Origin: Halapricum desulfuricans
GTDB lineage: Archaea > Halobacteriota > Halobacteria > Halobacteriales > Haloarculaceae
Direction: 5' to 3'
NCBI RefSeq assembly: GCF_017094505.1
Contig: NZ_CP064787.1
Span: 1,860,001-1,924,000 of the forward strand
Length of the DNA: 64,000 nucleotides
The notes beneath the pieces were generated by a model. That model did no database searches. It saw only the letters and a program-made list of their open reading frames with translations, and was not told where the DNA came from. Made by a program: the position numbers and the translations under genes. Below, in pieces: positions 5,048 through 48,843 of the stretch; the first letter of the stretch is position 1, and each line of letters begins with the position of its first letter.

Positions 5048-6640
5048 ATGTTCGGCCCGGCCGATAGCGTGCGAGGGCTCTCGAAGCGGATCTCCAGGCT
5101 GGTCCACGGGAGGGTTCGGGCGTTTCGCCGGTGGATCGAGACGACCCGCAATCTGGTCCACCTCTCGGTGCTGCTCGCGCTGCCGCTGTTGCTGGGGACC
5201 GTGACGGCGCTGTCGAACGCGATCGACCTCCTGCCGTTTCTGCTCTTCCCGCCGCTGGCGTCGGGATCGTACACGCTCTTTTCCAGTCCCGAGAGTCGCT
5301 CCGCCTCGCCGCGCCGGTTCGTCGGCGGGCTCACGGCGGGCGCGTTCTCCGGCTGGGTCGCGCTCGAACTCGCGTTGCAGTACTGGTATCAACCGCAGCC
5401 ACAGACGCTTGCAGCCGACCCAGTGGCCGTCGCGCTGGGGCTGTTCCTGACGGGCGTCGTCACCTGGGCGCTCGACATCGAGGAGGCGTCGGCGTTCTCG
5501 ACGGCGCTTCTGGTACACGTCACCGGCGCGGATCAGTTCGCCTACGTTCTCAGCGTCGCGGCGTCGAGTGTGCTGGTCGCCGCCGCGTTCGCCCTCTGGC
5601 GTGACAACGTGTACGAACAGCGCGCGAGCATCCTCTATGAATCGACACGCGGCGACGATCGCGTGCTGGTTCCGACAGGCGGCCCCCACGAAGACGCGAC
5701 GGCGATGCTCGGCGCGCGGCTCGCGGCCGCTCACGACGCCGGGAACGTCGTCCTCTGTGACGTCGTCGCCGACGAGGACGTCGCCGAACAGGAACAGGCG
5801 CTGCTGGAGGGGCGCGGAGAGCCCGTCGACGGGACGCTTGACGTTGTTGTCCCGCGGGCCGATCCGACCGGCGTTCAGCCCGGCGACGTCCATCAGAACT
5901 GGGCCGACTTCGAGCGCGAATCCCCGGACCACAGCCAGGGGGTCGACGCCGGCGACATCAGTCAGGACTGGGACGCCTACGACGCGGACACGATCCGAAA
6001 ACGCGCGCGCGACCGGGCCGTAGCCGTGTCGGCAGCGGCGCTCGAATCGCGTGCCGAGCGCATCGAGACGGACGTGGGCGTCCCCTGCGAGGTCGTCGTC
6101 GCTGCCGGCCGCGGGTCCCGCGCCCGGACGATTTCCCGGACGGCCCGCGAGACCGGCTGTGACCTGATCGCGGCGTCCTACGAGACCGACGACGGGGACC
6201 TCGCACCGTCGGTCCGCGAGCTATTCGAGAGCGATATCGACGTGCTCGTCCACCGGTCTGCCGGCGGACAACTCCGCTGGTCACGAGTGCTGGTACTGGT
6301 GCGACGAGCCAGCGACGTCGCACACACTATGATCGACTTCGCCACGCGACTGACCGGCAACGACGTCAGCCTGTGTCGCTGTATCGACGCCGAGCGCGAG
6401 CGCCGCGACGCCGAGGAGACACTCGCCAACCTCGCCGAAACCGCGGACGGAAGCGTCGAGACGCGCGTCGCCCGGACAGACGTCGTGTCGTTTCTCGAAG
6501 CGAACGCCGCCCAGTTCGATCTGGTCGTGCTCGGATCGAGCGGAGACCGAAGTGCCACCTCCCGGTTTCTGACTCCGCCGACCTACGAACGACTCGGGGA
6601 GCTCGACACCGATATCGCAATTCTCGACCGGGGCGGGTGA
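5048..6640 (+). CDS. HPP-family membrane protein fused to universal-stress-protein domains
   Basis: A 530-residue two-part protein. Residues about 38-180 contain four or five hydrophobic segments of the HPP type (LLPFLLFPPLASGSYTLF and following). Residues about 200-530 are soluble and Usp-like: one half starts DDRVLVPTGGPHEDA, and a second ends in the typical LVVLGSSGDRSATSRFL nucleotide-binding pattern. An Asp-rich insert (PGDVHQNW, AGDISQDW) separates them. A role in membrane-associated stress or nucleotide sensing is inference from the domains. The downstream convergent gene is a gated K+ channel, so this locus may deal with ion homeostasis. Confidence 0.85.
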   Translation: MFGPADSVRGLSKRISRLVHGRVRAFRRWIETTRNLVHLSVLLALPLLLGTVTALSNAIDLLPFLLFPPLASGSYTLFSSPESRSASPRRFVGGLTAGAFSGWVALELALQYWYQPQPQTLAADPVAVALGLFLTGVVTWALDIEEASAFSTALLVHVTGADQFAYVLSVAASSVLVAAAFALWRDNVYEQRASILYESTRGDDRVLVPTGGPHEDATAMLGARLAAAHDAGNVVLCDVVADEDVAEQEQALLEGRGEPVDGTLDVVVPRADPTGVQPGDVHQNWADFERESPDHSQGVDAGDISQDWDAYDADTIRKRARDRAVAVSAAALESRAERIETDVGVPCEVVVAAGRGSRARTISRTARETGCDLIAASYETDDGDLAPSVRELFESDIDVLVHRSAGGQLRWSRVLVLVRRASDVAHTMIDFATRLTGNDVSLCRCIDAERERRDAEETLANLAETADGSVETRVARTDVVSFLEANAAQFDLVVLGSSGDRSATSRFLTPPTYERLGELDTDIAILDRGG

Positions 6641-35648: not shown

Positions 35649-35653
35649 TCGTC

Positions 35654-35771
35654 GACATCGCGGTGTTTGACACAGAGGGATGTCCCGTTCGACAGCGCGG
35701 TGTCTGACACACCGGAATATCCCGTTCGACAGCGCGGTGTCTGACACACCGGAACGTTTTTTGTCCCGTTC
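35654..35771. repeat. Three tandem copies of a ~37-bp unit with internal dyad
   Basis: Units at 35654-35690 (diverged), 35691-35727 and 35728-35771 (with a T-rich insertion). Each has the form GACAGCGCGGTGTCTGACAC-ACCGGAA...CCCGTTC, split here for display. Each good copy carries the hairpin GGTGT-CTGAC-ACACC. The last copy contains GTTTTTTG, about 25-30 bases before the next gene start, so the array covers the promoter of the 35793 gene and the 3' end of the 35196 gene. Confidence 0.8.
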
Positions 35772-35792
35772 GGGGTGTGTTGAGACGTGTCC

Positions 35793-36563
35793 ATGGACGA
35801 CTCGTCGGAGGACGAGCCGTTGTTCGACCCTCGGATTACGAGCTACAACTGGATGGCCGGCGTCGTCGGGGGCGTGTTGACGTTCATTGTGGGCTACCTT
35901 GCGATGGTCGTCGTCGCGCTGGTGCCCGACGGCCTTCCGGAAGGGGCCGAGGTGCAGGGCGTCCTCGCGGAGATCGGTCGAGCCTTCTACGCCGCGCACA
36001 ACGTGGCCCTGGAAGCCCGGACGCTCACAGACGACGTCTCGATTATCGATGGGGAGTACCTGTCCGAGGTCAACGGGACGATCGACTTTTCGAATATGCG
36101 GGAAAACGAGACGGTGATCATCGACACGGAGAGCCCGCAGGTCCTGTCGATCCCCGGTGAAGTCAATCCCGATCTGATCTTTCAGATCGACCTCGATCAG
36201 GCCCAGCAGCCGATCCAGCACGCTCAGGACAAGCCGGAACTGCTGTACTATCTCCTTCCGATCGTCGCGCTCGTCGCTGCCGGCGCAGTGCTTGCCGCTC
36301 TCACGCTCGGTGAGACCGCCTCGATACACGAGGCCGTACTGCCGGCGATCGGGCTCTCGGCCGGCTACACCGCGGCCGCAATGGTCGGAACCGTCCTCGT
36401 CGGTCTCGAACTTGCCGACGGTGCGATTCTGGTCGCCCCGAGTCTCGTCCAGACGGTCGTGTTCGCGCTGGCGTACAGTCTCCTGTGTGGACTCGTCGGA
36501 GGGTACCTGATCGGGTTCTGGCGCGTCAGGAGTGCGTCCCCTCGAGCGCCGACCGATCAGTGA
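35793..36563 (+). CDS. Membrane protein of unknown function
   Basis: A 256-residue protein with one helix near residues 20-42 and an extracytoplasmic acidic segment of about 100 residues (FYAAHNVALEARTL, VLSIPGEVNPDLIF). A cluster of four hydrophobic helices follows to the C-terminus. The ATG at 35793 is preferred over the GTG two codons earlier, but either is possible. The T-rich promoter candidate is inside the upstream 37-bp repeat array. I can assign no family function. Confidence 0.75.
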   Translation: MDDSSEDEPLFDPRITSYNWMAGVVGGVLTFIVGYLAMVVVALVPDGLPEGAEVQGVLAEIGRAFYAAHNVALEARTLTDDVSIIDGEYLSEVNGTIDFSNMRENETVIIDTESPQVLSIPGEVNPDLIFQIDLDQAQQPIQHAQDKPELLYYLLPIVALVAAGAVLAALTLGETASIHEAVLPAIGLSAGYTAAAMVGTVLVGLELADGAILVAPSLVQTVVFALAYSLLCGLVGGYLIGFWRVRSASPRAPTDQ

Positions 36564-36687
36564 TCGCCACCGAGCCTGTGTCGACGTACCGTTCCGGTCG
36601 TCCTCTAGCGGCGTCTGAGAGCGAGCCCAGCGAGGCCGCACCTTCCTCGAGCGGTGGGCTTTTGCTGAGTCCGCCCGCAGACTGGCT

Positions 36688-37503
36688 ATGGACGACGGCG
36701 ATCCGACGATCCTACTGACGAACGACGACGGAATCGAAACGACCGGGTTCCGGGCACTCTATGACGCGCTGACAGACGTCGGAGAAGTGATCGCAGTCGC
36801 GCCCGACAGCGACCAGAGTGCTGTCGGACGTGCGCTGTCGGACTCGGTCACGGTTACCGACCACGAACTCGGGTACGCGGTCGCCGGAACGCCCGCCGAC
36901 TGCGTCATCGCCGGCGTGGAGGCGCTGGTGCCCGACGTCGACCTCGTGGTGTCCGGCTGCAACGACGGGGCGAACCTCGGGGCGTACGTCCTCGGTCGGT
37001 CCGGCACCGTCAGCGCGGCCGTCGAGGCCGCCTTCTTCGACGTGCCGGCGATCGCCGTCTCGATGTACATCCCCGTTCGAGAGGACGTCACTTCCGAGGC
37101 GGTGAGATCAGAGTACGACGCCTACGGCGAGGCGACGCGAGCAGCCGCATACCTCGCGGACCACGCGCTCGGGGCGGGTGTCTTCGAGTCCGCCGACTAT
37201 CTGAACGTCAACGCGCCGATGGCCAGCGGGGAATACGGGCCGCTCGACGACGGCGAGCACGCGCCGCTCGCGATCACGGAGCCGTCACGCGTCTATCAGA
37301 TGGACGCCGTCCGTGACGGGGCCGAGATCCAGCTGTACGACCGGATCTGGGAGCGGATGGCCGACGGGGATCTGCCCGACGAGAACGGGACCGATCGACA
37401 AGCCGTCGTCGACGGCAAGGTCAGCGTCTCGCCGCTGACTGCGCCCCACACGAGCCAGCACCACGAGGCGCTGGACGCGCTGGCAGAGACGTATCCGGCG
37501 TGA
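36688..37503 (+). CDS. surE: 5'/3'-nucleotidase SurE
   Basis: A 271-residue metal-dependent phosphatase that acts on nucleoside monophosphates. The N-terminal metal motif ILLTNDDGIET is intact. Further SurE landmarks are APDSDQSAVGRALS, GTPADCVIAGV, SGCNDGANLG and the late LNVNAP. The TATA-like GCTTTTGC lies 27 bases before the ATG, giving a leaderless start. It is convergent with the DUF502 gene. Confidence 0.95.
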   Translation: MDDGDPTILLTNDDGIETTGFRALYDALTDVGEVIAVAPDSDQSAVGRALSDSVTVTDHELGYAVAGTPADCVIAGVEALVPDVDLVVSGCNDGANLGAYVLGRSGTVSAAVEAAFFDVPAIAVSMYIPVREDVTSEAVRSEYDAYGEATRAAAYLADHALGAGVFESADYLNVNAPMASGEYGPLDDGEHAPLAITEPSRVYQMDAVRDGAEIQLYDRIWERMADGDLPDENGTDRQAVVDGKVSVSPLTAPHTSQHHEALDALAETYPA

Positions 37504-37542
37504 CCACTGTCTTGCGAGCTGTCTGTGACAGTTCGGTGCGCT

Positions 37543-38346
37543 CTACACGTTGGTTTCATCGTGCGTGTTGTCTTCGGTGGACACGTCGGTTTCGTCGAGC
37601 GTGTTGTCTTCGGTGGACACGTCGGTTTCGTCGAGCGTGTCGTCTCTATCAGATGCGCTGTCCTCTCCGGGCACGTTACTCGACGTGGTCGCTGTTTCGA
37701 TGGCGTCGCTGATGTCCGGGTCGAGTGCTTCCAGTTCGTCTTTCGTCTCCGCGATGCCGGTCGTGACCATCAGTCGGATGCCCCGCCGAACCGAGATGTC
37801 GAGTTCGTGGACTTCCGACTCGGGGACGAGCGCGAGGTGACCGTTCGTCGGGTTCGGACTGTTCGGGAGATAGACGTTGTAGGCCACCCCGATCGCGGTC
37901 TGTACCGGTTCCGGGCTCTCGGACGTGATGAATCCGAGCGCGTAGACGCCGTCACGGGGATATTCAACGAGGACGACGCTTTTATACCGATCAGTCGACT
38001 CGACCAGCGAGTTGGCCACGCCCTGAACGCCGGTGTAGATGACCCGTACCATCGGAATGAGCCCGATCGCACGGTCGAGACCGCCGAAGAAACTACCGGT
38101 GATACCCCACTGGGCCAGAAAGCCGGCGAGCCAGATCAACACGAGCAGCAGTACCACCGCCAGCAATCTGGCCAGGAACTCGCTCTCGCCGGTGAATCGC
38201 GTCAGATCCATCGTCGTGACGAACGGCTCGACGAAGCCGGTCAGCCACCCGAACGAGAACCGCAGCGCGACGATCGTGACGACCAGCGGTGCGATCAGTA
38301 TCAGGCCGGTGACGAAGCTATTTCGGATCCAGTACTTCCAGTTCAC
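37543..38346 (-). CDS. DUF502 membrane protein with repeated acidic tail
   Basis: A 267-residue protein with two N-terminal helices (GLILIAPLVVTIVALRF, LLAVVLLLVLIWLAGFLA) and the DUF502 cytosolic core (IPMVRVIYTGVQGVANSL, VLVEYPRDGVYALGFIT). The tail consists of a 12-residue repeat, DNTLDETDVSTE, encoded by a 36-bp tandem. The GTG at 38346 is supported by AACTTTTTTGTG 26 bases upstream; the longer frame runs into the origin region. The function is unknown. Confidence 0.85.
   Translation of the reverse strand: MNWKYWIRNSFVTGLILIAPLVVTIVALRFSFGWLTGFVEPFVTTMDLTRFTGESEFLARLLAVVLLLVLIWLAGFLAQWGITGSFFGGLDRAIGLIPMVRVIYTGVQGVANSLVESTDRYKSVVLVEYPRDGVYALGFITSESPEPVQTAIGVAYNVYLPNSPNPTNGHLALVPESEVHELDISVRRGIRLMVTTGIAETKDELEALDPDISDAIETATTSSNVPGEDSASDRDDTLDETDVSTEDNTLDETDVSTEDNTHDETNV
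37565..37646. repeat. 36-bp tandem repeat inside the DUF502 coding tail
   Basis: Two exact 36-bp units at 37565-37600 and 37601-37636 plus a partial third, with a diverged partial copy before them. The unit is a multiple of three and keeps the reading frame, so it only lengthens the acidic tail of the protein. Confidence 0.85.
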
Positions 38347-38434
38347 GTCCGGGTGTCCCGCGGTAGCACAAAAAAAGTTCCCGCCTATTTTTCGGACTGG
38401 TCCGGACAGCCACGCCAGATGCGCCGACCGGTAG

Positions 38435-38461
38435 AGAGACACACCACTGTTGCAAGTGAAG
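38435..38461 (-). promoter_or_regulatory. Candidate origin recognition box, left copy
   Basis: A 27-bp sequence that reads CTTCACTTGCAACAGTGG-TGTGTCTCT on the minus strand (one mismatch to the right copy at 38904-38930, inverted orientation). The pattern of a short dyad followed by a T/G-rich flank is like haloarchaeal ORBs recognised by Orc1/Cdc6. It points outward from the enclosed repeat array. Confidence 0.6.
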
Positions 38462-38578
38462 CCGGGGCATTGAACGAGGGGGTGGGCCCACCAGCGGGTG
38501 TGGAAAGGCGAACCAGTGCAAGACGACCGTGACGTCCTGCCGTCCCGACCAGCCCGGCCTAGCGCCCCGCGCCGGACG

Positions 38579-38810
38579 ATCAACGGAGAATACACCGTAA
38601 TGCAGCGATCAACGGAGAATACACCGTAATGCAGCGATCAACGGAGAATACACCGCAATGCAGCGATCAACGGAGAATACACCGCAATGCAGCGATCAAC
38701 GGAGAATACACCGCAATGCAGCGATCAACGGAGAATACACCGCAATGCAGCGATCAACGGAGAATACACCGCAATGCAGCGATCAACGGAGAATACACCG
38801 CAACGCAGAA
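38579..38810. repeat. Eight tandem copies of a 29-bp repeat inside the putative origin
   Basis: Perfect 29-bp periodicity from 38579, unit ATCAACGGAGAATACACCGC-AATGCAGCG (split). Copies 1-2 have T for C in ACCGT, and copy 8 ends diverged. There are no spacers, so this is not a CRISPR. The unit is not a multiple of three, and all frames through it are repeat artefacts. Its place between two inverted origin boxes suggests iteron-like sites for an initiator. Confidence 0.95.
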
Positions 38811-38825
38811 TGTGCCGTACGCTGA

Positions 38826-38872
38826 GACCAATAGTCAGCTAAAAATGTAAATGCTTTAGTTGAAATTGTGGA
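38826..38872. other. AT-rich tract, possible duplex-unwinding element
   Basis: After the tandem array the sequence becomes AT-rich (AGCTAAAAATGTAAATGC, TTTAGTTGAAATTGTGG), in contrast to the GC-rich surroundings. It lies between the array and the right origin box. A duplex-unwinding role is inferred from this position. Confidence 0.45.
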
Positions 38873-38903
38873 CTGTTGCGCTACTAGGGTAGTCAATTCG
38901 CCG

Positions 38904-38930
38904 CTTCACTTGCAAGAGTGGTGTGTCTCT
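38904..38930 (+). promoter_or_regulatory. Candidate origin recognition box, right copy
   Basis: CTTCACTTGCAAGAGTGG-TGTGTCTCT on the plus strand, inverted match of the left copy (26 of 27). It contains the exact palindrome CTTGCAAG. A partial third match, AAGAGTGG at 39022-39029, touches the TATA box of the orc1/cdc6 gene and could allow autoregulation. Confidence 0.6.
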
Positions 38931-39021
38931 GTCGTTCACGGTGCTGGCCATCCGGCTCCGAGGAGACAGTAAGGTCGCCGACAACCGCACACCAACGCTC
39001 CGTCTCACATGAATCAGATGT

Positions 39022-39038
39022 AAGAGTGGATTTATATA
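39022..39038 (+). promoter_or_regulatory. orc1/cdc6 promoter with partial origin-box match
   Basis: TTTATATA at 39031-39038 is a near-ideal archaeal TATA box centred about 26 bases before the ATG at 39061, so the message is probably leaderless. Directly upstream, AAGAGTGG repeats part of the origin box. Confidence 0.7.
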
Positions 39039-39060
39039 TGAACGATCGAAAGGCGGAGGC

Positions 39061-40287
39061 ATGCGTCGATTCGTGCGGAAGCAGAACATCTTCCGCAACA
39101 AGGATGCGCTCGGGGAATCCTACCAGCCGGACCGGATCGAGGAACGCGACGAGGAGATCGAGGAATACATGGACGCGCTCCAGCCGGTCGTCGACGGCTG
39201 GGAGCCGAACAACGTCTTCCTCTATGGGAATACGGGGGTCGGGAAGACAGCCGTCACTGACTATCTTCTCGACAGACTCAAAAGAGACGTTGCGGACTAC
39301 GACGATGTCGATCTGTCCGTGTTCTCGGTCAACTGCAAGACGCTCAATTCCTCGTATCAGGTCGCAGTCGAGCTGGTGAACGAACTCCGGCCAACAGGTG
39401 GCGAAATTAGTTCGACCGGGTATCCCCAGCAGACTGTCTTCAAGAAGCTCTACGAAGAACTCGAGGCGATCGGCGGCACGATTCTGATCGTACTGGACGA
39501 GATCGACTCGATCGGTGATCGAGACGAACTCCTGTACGAACTCCCGCGGGCGCGAGCCAACGGCAAGCTCGACTCGACGAAGGTCGGCGTCATCGGGATC
39601 AGCAACGACTTCAAGTTCCGCGATCAGCTTGATCCCCGCGTTCAGGACACGCTCTGTGAGCGAGAACTGCAGTTTCCGCCGTACGACGCGCCGGAACTGG
39701 AGAACATCCTCGAGTCGCGCGCCGAGATCGCGATCGCTGAGGGTGCCATCGAGCAGGGCGTGTTGAACTTCTGTGCGGCGCTGGCCGCCCGTGACAGCGG
39801 AAGCGCCCGACAGGCGCTCGATCTCCTGCGACTGGCGGGCGAGATCGCCGAGAATCGGGACGCCGACCTCGTCGAACGCGATCACGTCGAAGCGGCACGG
39901 TCCCGTCTCGAACAGGAGCGTGTCGAGGAAGGGATGCGCGAACTGACGACACACGGCCGTCTCGTCCTGCTGGCAGTCATTTCGAAAGCCGCCAGAGAGA
40001 AAACGCCGTGTCGTATTCGAGAGATTTACGAGGAGTACGCGACGCTCTGTGACACCTCCGGGATCGACCCGCTCGCACAGCGATCTGTCCACAACCACCT
40101 GTCCGATCTCCGGATGCTCGGGATCCTGTCGGCCTACGAGAACCGGAGTGGCTCTCGGGGCAACTACTACAGCTACGAACTGGACGTCCCGTTTGCGAGC
40201 GCGATCGAGGCCATGTCAGACGTCCTCCGACTCGACAACGAGATCGAAACGATCCGCGAAATCGCATCGAGAAACGACGTCACGTGA
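39061..40287 (+). CDS. Orc1/Cdc6-family replication initiator
   Basis: A 408-residue AAA+ initiator that binds origin boxes and loads the MCM helicase. Walker A is GNTGVGKT at residues 56-63, Walker B VLDEID at 145-150, and sensor 1 lies in GVIGISNDFKF. A C-terminal winged helix follows (RIREIYEEYATLC...RSVHNHLSDLRMLG). The last twelve codons (TIREIASRNDVT) are part of a 38-bp tandem repeat continuing downstream, so the protein end has been shaped by repeat expansion. The 5' flank is the origin candidate. Confidence 0.94.
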   Translation: MRRFVRKQNIFRNKDALGESYQPDRIEERDEEIEEYMDALQPVVDGWEPNNVFLYGNTGVGKTAVTDYLLDRLKRDVADYDDVDLSVFSVNCKTLNSSYQVAVELVNELRPTGGEISSTGYPQQTVFKKLYEELEAIGGTILIVLDEIDSIGDRDELLYELPRARANGKLDSTKVGVIGISNDFKFRDQLDPRVQDTLCERELQFPPYDAPELENILESRAEIAIAEGAIEQGVLNFCAALAARDSGSARQALDLLRLAGEIAENRDADLVERDHVEAARSRLEQERVEEGMRELTTHGRLVLLAVISKAAREKTPCRIREIYEEYATLCDTSGIDPLAQRSVHNHLSDLRMLGILSAYENRSGSRGNYYSYELDVPFASAIEAMSDVLRLDNEIETIREIASRNDVT

Positions 40288-40404
40288 TTATCCGCGAAAT
40301 CGCATCGAGAAACGACGTCACGTGATTATCCGCGAAATCGCCTCGAGAAACGACGTCACGTGATTATCTGCGAAATCGCCTCGAGAAACAACGTCACGGG
40401 AATT
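40252..40404. repeat. Four tandem copies of a 38-bp repeat at the orc1/cdc6 3' end
   Basis: Units start at 40252, 40290, 40328 and 40366. Each begins ATCCGCGAAATCGC and ends GACGTCACGTGATT, containing the palindromes GACGTC and TCACGTGA. Copies 1-2 are identical, copy 3 has one change, and copy 4 has several. The first unit is coding for the end of Orc1/Cdc6 and includes its TGA; the others are noncoding. Confidence 0.93.
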
Positions 40405-40429
40405 GCGTCCTCTGTCGCCTGTGACGCAT

Positions 40430-40503
40430 AGTGACCGTTGGAAGTCCCTTCCGGGTCGACCGCACGAAGTAGTGCGGTCGAGTAAACCGTTACAACAGTC
40501 ACT
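40430..40503. repeat. Dispersed palindromic repeat, copy 3 (3' of the PhoU-domain gene)
   Basis: 74 bp from AGTGACCGTTGGA to TACAACAGTCACT, ends complementary at most positions. It has an internal hairpin CCGCAC-GAAGTA-GTGCGG. It matches copy 2 at both ends and copy 1 in the TTCCGG and CAGTCAC parts. It immediately precedes the stop codon of the minus-strand PhoU-domain gene. Confidence 0.65.
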
Positions 40504-40504
40504 A

Positions 40505-41554
40505 TCACTCGTCGCTCGGCGTTCTGATCGTCGTGTGTTCGCTCTCCTCGTTGAGCGCGAGGTTCGTCGCGATCTCGGCGTTCCGCACGGCGTATTCGGC
40601 CGTCTGCTGGAGGCTGACGAGCACTTCTCTGATCTCGAGGAGGTCCGTGTTGCTCATCTCGGGCAGGTCTCCCAGAATCTCCTGCACGCAGTCCTCGACT
40701 TCGGCGTACTGCTTTCGGACCTCGATGGCTGCGTTGTAGTCTCGTTCGACGGCGGCGTGGGCGGCCTGTTCGGTCATCTCGTTGACCTGGTCGGTGAAAT
40801 CGCGGATTCGCTTCATCGTCGAGGAGTCGACCTGTAGCGTGTGGTCTTCGGCTTCCAGCGCGATCTCGGCGATGTCCTCGGCGTTGTCGGCAGTCAACTC
40901 GAGGTTCTTCGCGATCGACCGATAGCCGATCAGCGGGAACCCGTCCTCCAGCCCGACGGCACGGGCGAGATTCGGGTTCTGGTAGGCCGTGAAGATCAAC
41001 CGAAGCATGAGTACGAAGATCTTGTTCGCCTGCCGCTCCCGGTTCAGCGCACGCTGTGCGAGGTCGGGATTGCTGTGGGCCAGCGCCTTGATCCCCTCGT
41101 TTCGCATCGTCGATCCGGTCGACTCGAGGCGCTCGATGAGGTTGTCGAGCGTGAAGTCCTCCGCGTCGACCGAACACCGGATCGCGATCCGGTCCGGGGT
41201 CTCCTCGATGACGCCCAGCCCCATCAGCTGCGTCTCGGCGTTGTAGACGGCGTTGATGTGCTCGCTGGCCAGCGTTTCTCCCTCTCCGGCGTCGACGTGG
41301 ATGATCCGCCTCCCCAGCACGTACTGGGCGACGATCGCGCGTTCCAGACTGTCGGCGTCCAGATCGGCCGCGTGGATGACGGCCTCGGACTCCTCCGACT
41401 GGACCGACTCCGGCAGCACCGTCAGCGTCCCCTTGTCACCGATCCGCAACGAGACCTCGTCGCCCTTCTCGACGCCCTGGTTGGTGGTCCACTCCGCCGG
41501 CAGGGTCATCGCCAGCGTCGATGGCCCCAGTCGCTGCACTTTCCTGGTTTCCAT
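40505..41554 (-). CDS. AbrB-like/PhoU-domain regulator
   Basis: A 349-residue protein. Residues 1-45 are a SpoVT/AbrB-type DNA-binding swapped hairpin (METRKVQRLGPSTLAMTLPAEW, then VEKGDEVSLR). The rest comprises PhoU-type three-helix repeats with acidic metal-binding clusters (AEDIAEIALEAEDH, YAEVEDCVQEIL). Such proteins control phosphate transport genes. No pst genes are in the window. The ATG at 41554 starts the AbrB hairpin exactly. Confidence 0.88.
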   Translation of the reverse strand: METRKVQRLGPSTLAMTLPAEWTTNQGVEKGDEVSLRIGDKGTLTVLPESVQSEESEAVIHAADLDADSLERAIVAQYVLGRRIIHVDAGEGETLASEHINAVYNAETQLMGLGVIEETPDRIAIRCSVDAEDFTLDNLIERLESTGSTMRNEGIKALAHSNPDLAQRALNRERQANKIFVLMLRLIFTAYQNPNLARAVGLEDGFPLIGYRSIAKNLELTADNAEDIAEIALEAEDHTLQVDSSTMKRIRDFTDQVNEMTEQAAHAAVERDYNAAIEVRKQYAEVEDCVQEILGDLPEMSNTDLLEIREVLVSLQQTAEYAVRNAEIATNLALNEESEHTTIRTPSDE

Positions 41555-41628
41555 ACCCCCTTTATGATTTGCAGTGTACCTTAATCTTGTGCATACACAA
41601 CCATATTTGGGCATTTGTCAACCTATGT

Positions 41629-41688
41629 CTATACACTCTACTCTCCAGCACACCGATGCTATACACTCTACTCGCCAGCAAACCAGTG
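41629..41688. repeat. Two tandem ~30-bp repeats upstream of the PhoU-domain gene
   Basis: CTATACACTCTACTCTCCAG-CACACCGATG at 41629-41658 is followed directly by CTATACACTCTACTCGCCAG-CAAACCAGTG at 41659-41688. On the minus strand each gives GTGTATAG, and a related GTGTATGCAC lies at 41590-41599, nearer the gene. These may be regulator sites for the PhoU-domain gene or part of the 3' region of the ATP-NAD kinase-like gene. Confidence 0.7.
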
Positions 41689-48679: not shown

Positions 48680-48843
48680 GGTGTGCCGCGTTTGTCATAC
48701 TGGTGGCTATACGTTCGTAACGATATCTGGCACGACGGCATGCCAGATCATTTCGAAATGGTATCGCCATCAGTATCAATGCTCCCGTCGGCGGCGCGAC
48801 CCGAGGTCACGAGATTTAACTATCGACAGGTAGGGGTATGGAT

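Follow-up and report, generated by a model that had tools for sequence, protein, structure and literature searches.

Replication origins adjacent to an orc1/cdc6 gene and equipped with family-specific boxes (ORBs) are a known kind in haloarchaea (PMC3528665). The ORBs lie in inverted orientation upstream of the origin's own orc1/cdc6 gene, an AT-rich tract lies between them, and the box type is tied to the initiator family (PMC3528665). An origin was predicted by Wu et al. 2012 at every orc1 gene on the replicons pNG500, pHTUR04 and H. jeotgali plasmid 2 (PMC3528665). In Haloarcula hispanica, oriC2D, with 11 ORBs, is undeletable while oriC2 is present and lowers oriC2 activity (PMC3936714), probably by titration of the initiator (PMC3936714). 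Haloarchaeal origins with good anatomy may nevertheless be dormant (PMC3528665, PMC4595724).

The locus studied here lies in a 64-kb stretch of DNA (the window) that corresponds to positions 1860001-1924000 of a single-contig 2.94-Mb genome. It has the anatomy of the orc1/cdc6-adjacent origins and is probably a new member of that kind, with two private changes. With a probability of about 0.8, positions 38435-39060 together with orc1/cdc6 would constitute an Orc1/Cdc6-dependent origin of an often plasmid-borne haloarchaeal family, in which the tandem array does not provide initiator sites. The features of the locus are as follows.

38435..38461, minus strand: left ORB, G/T-rich tail pointing outward; its minus-strand sequence, CTTCACTTGCAACAGTGGTGTGTCTC, equals the family consensus exactly
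38462..38521, plus strand: tract adjoining the left ORB on its inner side, with 67% purine on the plus strand
38577..38808, plus strand: tandem array of the unit CGATCAACGGAGAATACACCGCAATGCAG, period 29, 8.0 copies, 99% matches, 232 bp
38809..38903, no strand: candidate unwinding region, AT-rich, 43% GC against 64% for the window
38854..38879, plus strand: internal ORB-like element, CTTTAGTTGAAATTGTGGACTGTTGC, family form approximately CTTTAGWTGAAAYTGTGGACTGTTGY, inside the AT-rich tract
38904..38930, plus strand: right ORB, CTTCACTTGCAAGAGTGGTGTGTCTCT, tail outward, near the family consensus
39004..39029, plus strand: promoter-proximal ORB-like element, CTCACATGAATCAGATGTAAGAGTGG, followed directly by the TATA box
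39031-39038: orc1 TATA box, TTTATATA
39061..40287, plus strand: orc1/cdc6, 408 aa, intact and full-length
40252..40398, plus strand: tandem array of 3.9 x 38 bp, repeating the last 38 bp of orc1

The preliminary description of this DNA had reported 27-bp inverted boxes at 38435-38461 and 38904-38930 that match at 26 of 27 positions, an AT-rich tract and eight 29-bp tandem repeats between them, and an Orc1/Cdc6 gene starting 130 bases past the right box. All of these are correct. The box arms can be extended to an inverted repeat of 28 nt (38435-38462 and 38903-38930, 96% complementary). A position weight matrix was made from the boxes of relatives, with the consensus given above for the left ORB. 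Scanning of the window with this matrix returned two boxes only, at 47.0 and 45.5 bits, with everything else at 5 bits or below, and chance is not a reasonable source of the pair. The tail, GTGGTGTGTCTC, is G/T-rich, conserved and located at the expected end of the ORB, yet it has no run of G; in this it differs from the long G run of the described origins (PMC3528665).

Elsewhere in the 2.94-Mb genome the box occurs a single time, 411 kb away (G000:C1:2309986-2310008). This solitary ORB may serve as a titration site at a distance, or it may be a relic. It sits between NTPase-like and carbonic anhydrase-like genes and abuts a MITE-like inverted-repeat element. An element of this type, about 80 bp long with inverted repeats, is also found in the window (approximately 48695-48778), has 76 matches in its own genome and is present at dozens of places in Halapricum genomes.

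The plus strand just inside the left ORB is G-rich, as at oriC1, which has a G-rich inverted repeat acting as an enhancer (PMC3936714). Unlike that enhancer, the stretch is represented by its left half only, and only in the window and in close relatives: the purine fraction of the tract is 0.65-0.80 in the closest relatives and 0.53-0.57 in Natrinema. By analogy, the tract at 38462-38521 may tentatively be regarded as a counterpart of half of the oriC1 repeat.

The product of orc1/cdc6 matches TIGR02928 (E = 1e-141), has AAA+, Cdc6_lid and Cdc6 winged-helix domains, and aligns nearly end to end with chains 2qby_A and 2v1u_A of solved archaeal Orc1/Cdc6 structures. Comparison with the H. hydrolyticum orthologue gave 148 differences in synonymous and 33 in nonsynonymous codons, a pattern that points to a gene under purifying selection.

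Alignment of the right half of the origin across about 33 relatives revealed two further conserved elements. The internal element at 38854-38879 scores 4.1 bits, compared with a 95% background of -14.5 bits (p = 0.0025 against shuffles). The promoter-proximal element at 39004-39029 scores -4.2 bits, also above the 95% background of -14.5, and is conserved in the aligned relatives as TTCACTTGAAACAGATG..GTGG..TTTATAT. The internal element may mark the site where opening is nucleated; the promoter-proximal element is a probable autoregulatory site of orc1.

Orthologues of the initiator with 71-94% identity were found in Haloarculaceae, Haloferacaceae, Natrialbaceae, Haladaptataceae and Halorubellaceae and on plasmids. 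The preliminary description had named a lack of conservation of the boxes beside orthologous orc1/cdc6 genes as evidence against an origin. Instead, the upstream pair is kept in 43 of 44 orthologues (44 of 45 clade members when the window is counted), L030 being the exception, which supports the proposal of an orc1/cdc6-adjacent origin with inverted ORBs. Clade members with the pair have at least two boxes upstream of the gene, usually near -290 and -90 relative to the start codon; in close relatives they are inverted with their tails outward. A quick tree of 68 initiators placed 45, including that of the window, in one clade and 23 outside it. The box label is clustered on this tree, with 3 changes compared with 18.2 in shuffles; outside the clade a box above threshold accompanies three of the 23 initiators, two of them having a box of a related type.

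Within the genus the box is confined to the two genomes that hold the gene and was absent when sought in the four Halapricum genomes without it. It is also absent beside the other orc1 genes tested in its own genome. The box had been described as a type of its own. It is instead the ORB of a known haloarchaeal origin family, one that occurs on plasmids and in many haloarchaeal genera.

A sister initiator family (L066 and L069, about 52-55% identical) has the same GTGGTGTGTCTG tail with a different dyad, TTTTACTGGCAAAAGTGG, and ORB tail and dyad seem to evolve separately. A second orc1 of the same genome (59% identical; approximately 714430 and 717500) has tandem repeats of its own that are ORB-like but differ in type, GAACACTTGACAGGGTGGGGTG. 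A CRISPR array with at least 38 copies of the repeat GCTTCAATCCCTCAAGGGTTCGTCTGGAAC (approximately 930500-933000) adjoins an orc1/cdc6-like gene at 929434. Contig PUOX01000009.1, binned as a Mollicutes MAG, has a haloarchaeal orc1 of the present family together with its boxes and is probably mis-binned.

On three plasmids this Orc1 is the only one found: pJCM16430-01 of Haloplanus aerogenes (41 kb, 92%), a 100-kb plasmid of Haloarcula taiwanensis and a 188-kb plasmid of Haladaptatus halobius. As the only Orc1 found there, it is likely to be the replicator of these plasmids. Orthologues are also carried by H. marismortui pNG500, H. turkmenica pHTUR04 and H. jeotgali plasmid 2.

The relatives have 1-6 ORBs just downstream of orc1. 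At least one ORB lies within 700 bp 3' of the gene in 39 of the 45 clade members, often with several in tandem at 22-36-bp periods. Relatives of the window's origin thus have the same architecture as oriC2-cdc6E/oriC2D of Haloarcula hispanica (PMC3936714). The window's locus departs from it: no ORB was found downstream of its orc1, the best score there (-21.7 bits) being that of the background. The 38-bp array at 40252-40398 occupies the spot where relatives have their downstream ORBs.

Identity of the window's origin with oriC2-cdc6E of H. hispanica was considered and dropped, because the chromosomal homologue of H. marismortui shares only 56% identity and its box is of another type, while the close orthologue of that species is located on pNG500. 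Cdc6E is probably a sister family of the window's initiator, as judged through the H. marismortui gene rather than the H. hispanica sequence.

These comparisons also bear on the reading that the boxes are mere operators for orc1 and the divergent DUF502-family gene and do not form an origin. Two points favor it: the location of the boxes between divergent promoters and the overlap of one ORB-like element with the TATA box of orc1. Nevertheless, the gene upstream varies among relatives, whereas orc1 retains its box pair; no other orc1 was found on some of the plasmids; and most relatives have boxes on the 3' side of the gene too. We consider the operator reading very unlikely.

The array between the boxes (38577-38808) had been described as iteron-like. 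It resembles bacterial iteron origins (RK2, R6K, F) in having direct repeats in tandem close to an initiator gene, together with an AT-rich tract. It differs from them in that its repeats neither resemble initiator sites nor are conserved, and in that the initiator is Orc1/Cdc6 and not Rep. Bacterial iterons are approximately 17-22 bp long, compared with 29 bp for the unit here. The unit is absent from the other Halapricum genomes searched, no tandem array was found between the boxes of relatives, and neither array nor box has an exact match in the viral contigs. The unit was also tried as a degenerate ORB and rejected: its similarity to the ORB is no better than that of its own shuffles (p = 0.385), and its weight-matrix score of -22.9 bits is at background (mean -23.6). 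In addition, a 29-bp period does not correspond to an integral number of helical turns. The iteron-like character thus finds no support here. Since the array is absent from relatives and its unit is not ORB-like, we conclude from the comparison that it would be a recent, lineage-specific expansion and not a set of initiator sites, though it may act in melting or as a spacer.

The array accounts for most of the difference in spacing between this locus and its relatives. The inter-box gap is 442 bp here, compared with 176-178 bp in near relatives and 144-264 bp in a wider set; the corresponding start-to-start distances are 468 bp here and 202-204 bp in near relatives. A 442-bp inter-ORB distance with a tandem array, and no downstream ORBs, also sets the locus apart from the described origins (PMC3528665). 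The layout is unusual, as the preliminary description had it, with the cause lying in an added array and lost downstream ORBs and not in a combination of ORBs with iterons.

A functional array, serving as second-class initiator or cofactor sites (iterons) or as an extended unwinding element by which firing or copy number is tuned, is improbable in our estimation. It would be favored by the position between the ORBs, where unwinding should begin, by a GC content of 51% (a higher AT content than that of the genome, with a stability about 1-2 s.d. below the window mean), and by the near identity of the eight copies with both ORBs left intact despite the insertion. The unit also shows a weak similarity to the inter-ORB DNA of relatives (single relatives p < 0.01, summed p = 0.0175), so that it may have arisen by duplication of ancestral DNA from between the boxes, for which the signal is weak. 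Set against this are the private occurrence of the array, the lack of ORB similarity and the helical phase discussed above. Moreover, the 100-bp stretch of the origin that melts most readily, 38830-38930, lies beside the array and outside it. Between the left box and the array the GC content is 72%.

The origin is not a constant feature of the genus. No close homologue of the initiator was found in genomes G003, G023 and G037, and G062 has only a 51% one. With four of six Halapricum genomes lacking it, the origin is dispensable in the genus. G003 is a sister genome whose flanking PhoU-type gene is about 94% identical. Its DUF502-family gene lies right next to the PhoU-type gene, and a cassette of about 2.1 kb (approximately 38390-40498) is missing, with no obvious target duplication. 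In H. hydrolyticum the DUF502-ori-orc1 linkage is common with the window and the PhoU-type gene is elsewhere, so that loss of the cassette in G003 is the simpler reading. G003 also has a TnpB-type gene (L097 5253-6494) at the place of a 37-bp array of the window (35652-35754).

Absence from the sister genome is one of the points in favor of a decaying or dormant origin, in which array insertion and loss of the downstream ORBs would reflect relaxed selection after chromosomal integration. The enlarged inter-ORB distance and the missing downstream ORBs agree with it, and cases of dormancy have been described among haloarchaeal origins of lower conservation (PMC4595724). The left ORB, however, is still the family consensus and the right one near it, the codon differences indicate purifying selection on orc1, and both the internal and the promoter elements are kept. 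Decay or dormancy is a possible but rather unlikely explanation.

The 29-bp array is one of five unrelated arrays, with periods of 37, 36, 29, 38 and 30, that crowd the 6 kb from 35652 to 41684, on both sides of the origin. The survey of array density covered about 730 kb of chromosome, taken as stretches: 19 arrays scoring at least 100 were found in all, 14 of them in the other 724 kb. With the density elsewhere as reference, five arrays in 6.1 kb correspond to a Poisson probability of 1.7e-7, or about 2e-5 when corrected for the number of places, for a region picked post hoc. No arrays were found in the homologous 8 kb of G003, which lacks the origin, or in the origin region of H. hydrolyticum, where two downstream boxes (L012, approximately 6273-6349) are kept. 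Across relatives, enrichment of arrays near this origin type was not significant (4 near, 5 far). It is conceivable, at rather long odds, that loss of the downstream ORBs led to over-initiation or fork stalling, and that breakage and template switching then produced the five 29-38-bp arrays, the 8 x 29-bp array included. If true, the arrays would be a scar that deregulated firing of an archaeal origin has left in the genome.

Returning to the preferred reading of an Orc1/Cdc6-dependent origin, we infer binding, unwinding, firing and autoregulation from the sequence. The 408-aa Orc1 would bind both ORBs with their outward tails, probably also the weaker internal element, open the AT-rich tract at 38809-38903 and load MCM there. 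Bound to the weak element over the orc1 TATA box, it would probably repress its own gene. The array would have expanded recently between the left ORB and the core, widening the gap from about 178 to 442 bp, and would not be bound by Orc1. The wider box spacing might impair firing.

GC skew shows no turn at the locus (difference -0.001 at 20 kb; 404 kb scanned). The presumed oriC1 shows no clear turn either (326 kb scanned), and the skew test is therefore without power here. A sharp turn at 1.953 Mb, to the right of the window, is explained by strand-biased, provirus-like genes: the region 1924000-1983000 contains strand-biased large genes and an integrase-like gene and looks like a provirus. 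The origin described here would be secondary to oriC1 and perhaps dormant or weak.

With this locus, a Halapricum chromosome gains a probable origin of plasmid type with clear limits. The locus also supplies a clear box consensus for one Orc1 family. It is a natural variant of the architecture dissected in Haloarcula hispanica, with a longer inter-ORB gap, an array gained and the titration cluster lost. Since some sister genomes have the cassette and others lack it, direct tests can be made of what downstream ORBs, the spacing between ORBs and local instability of repeats contribute.
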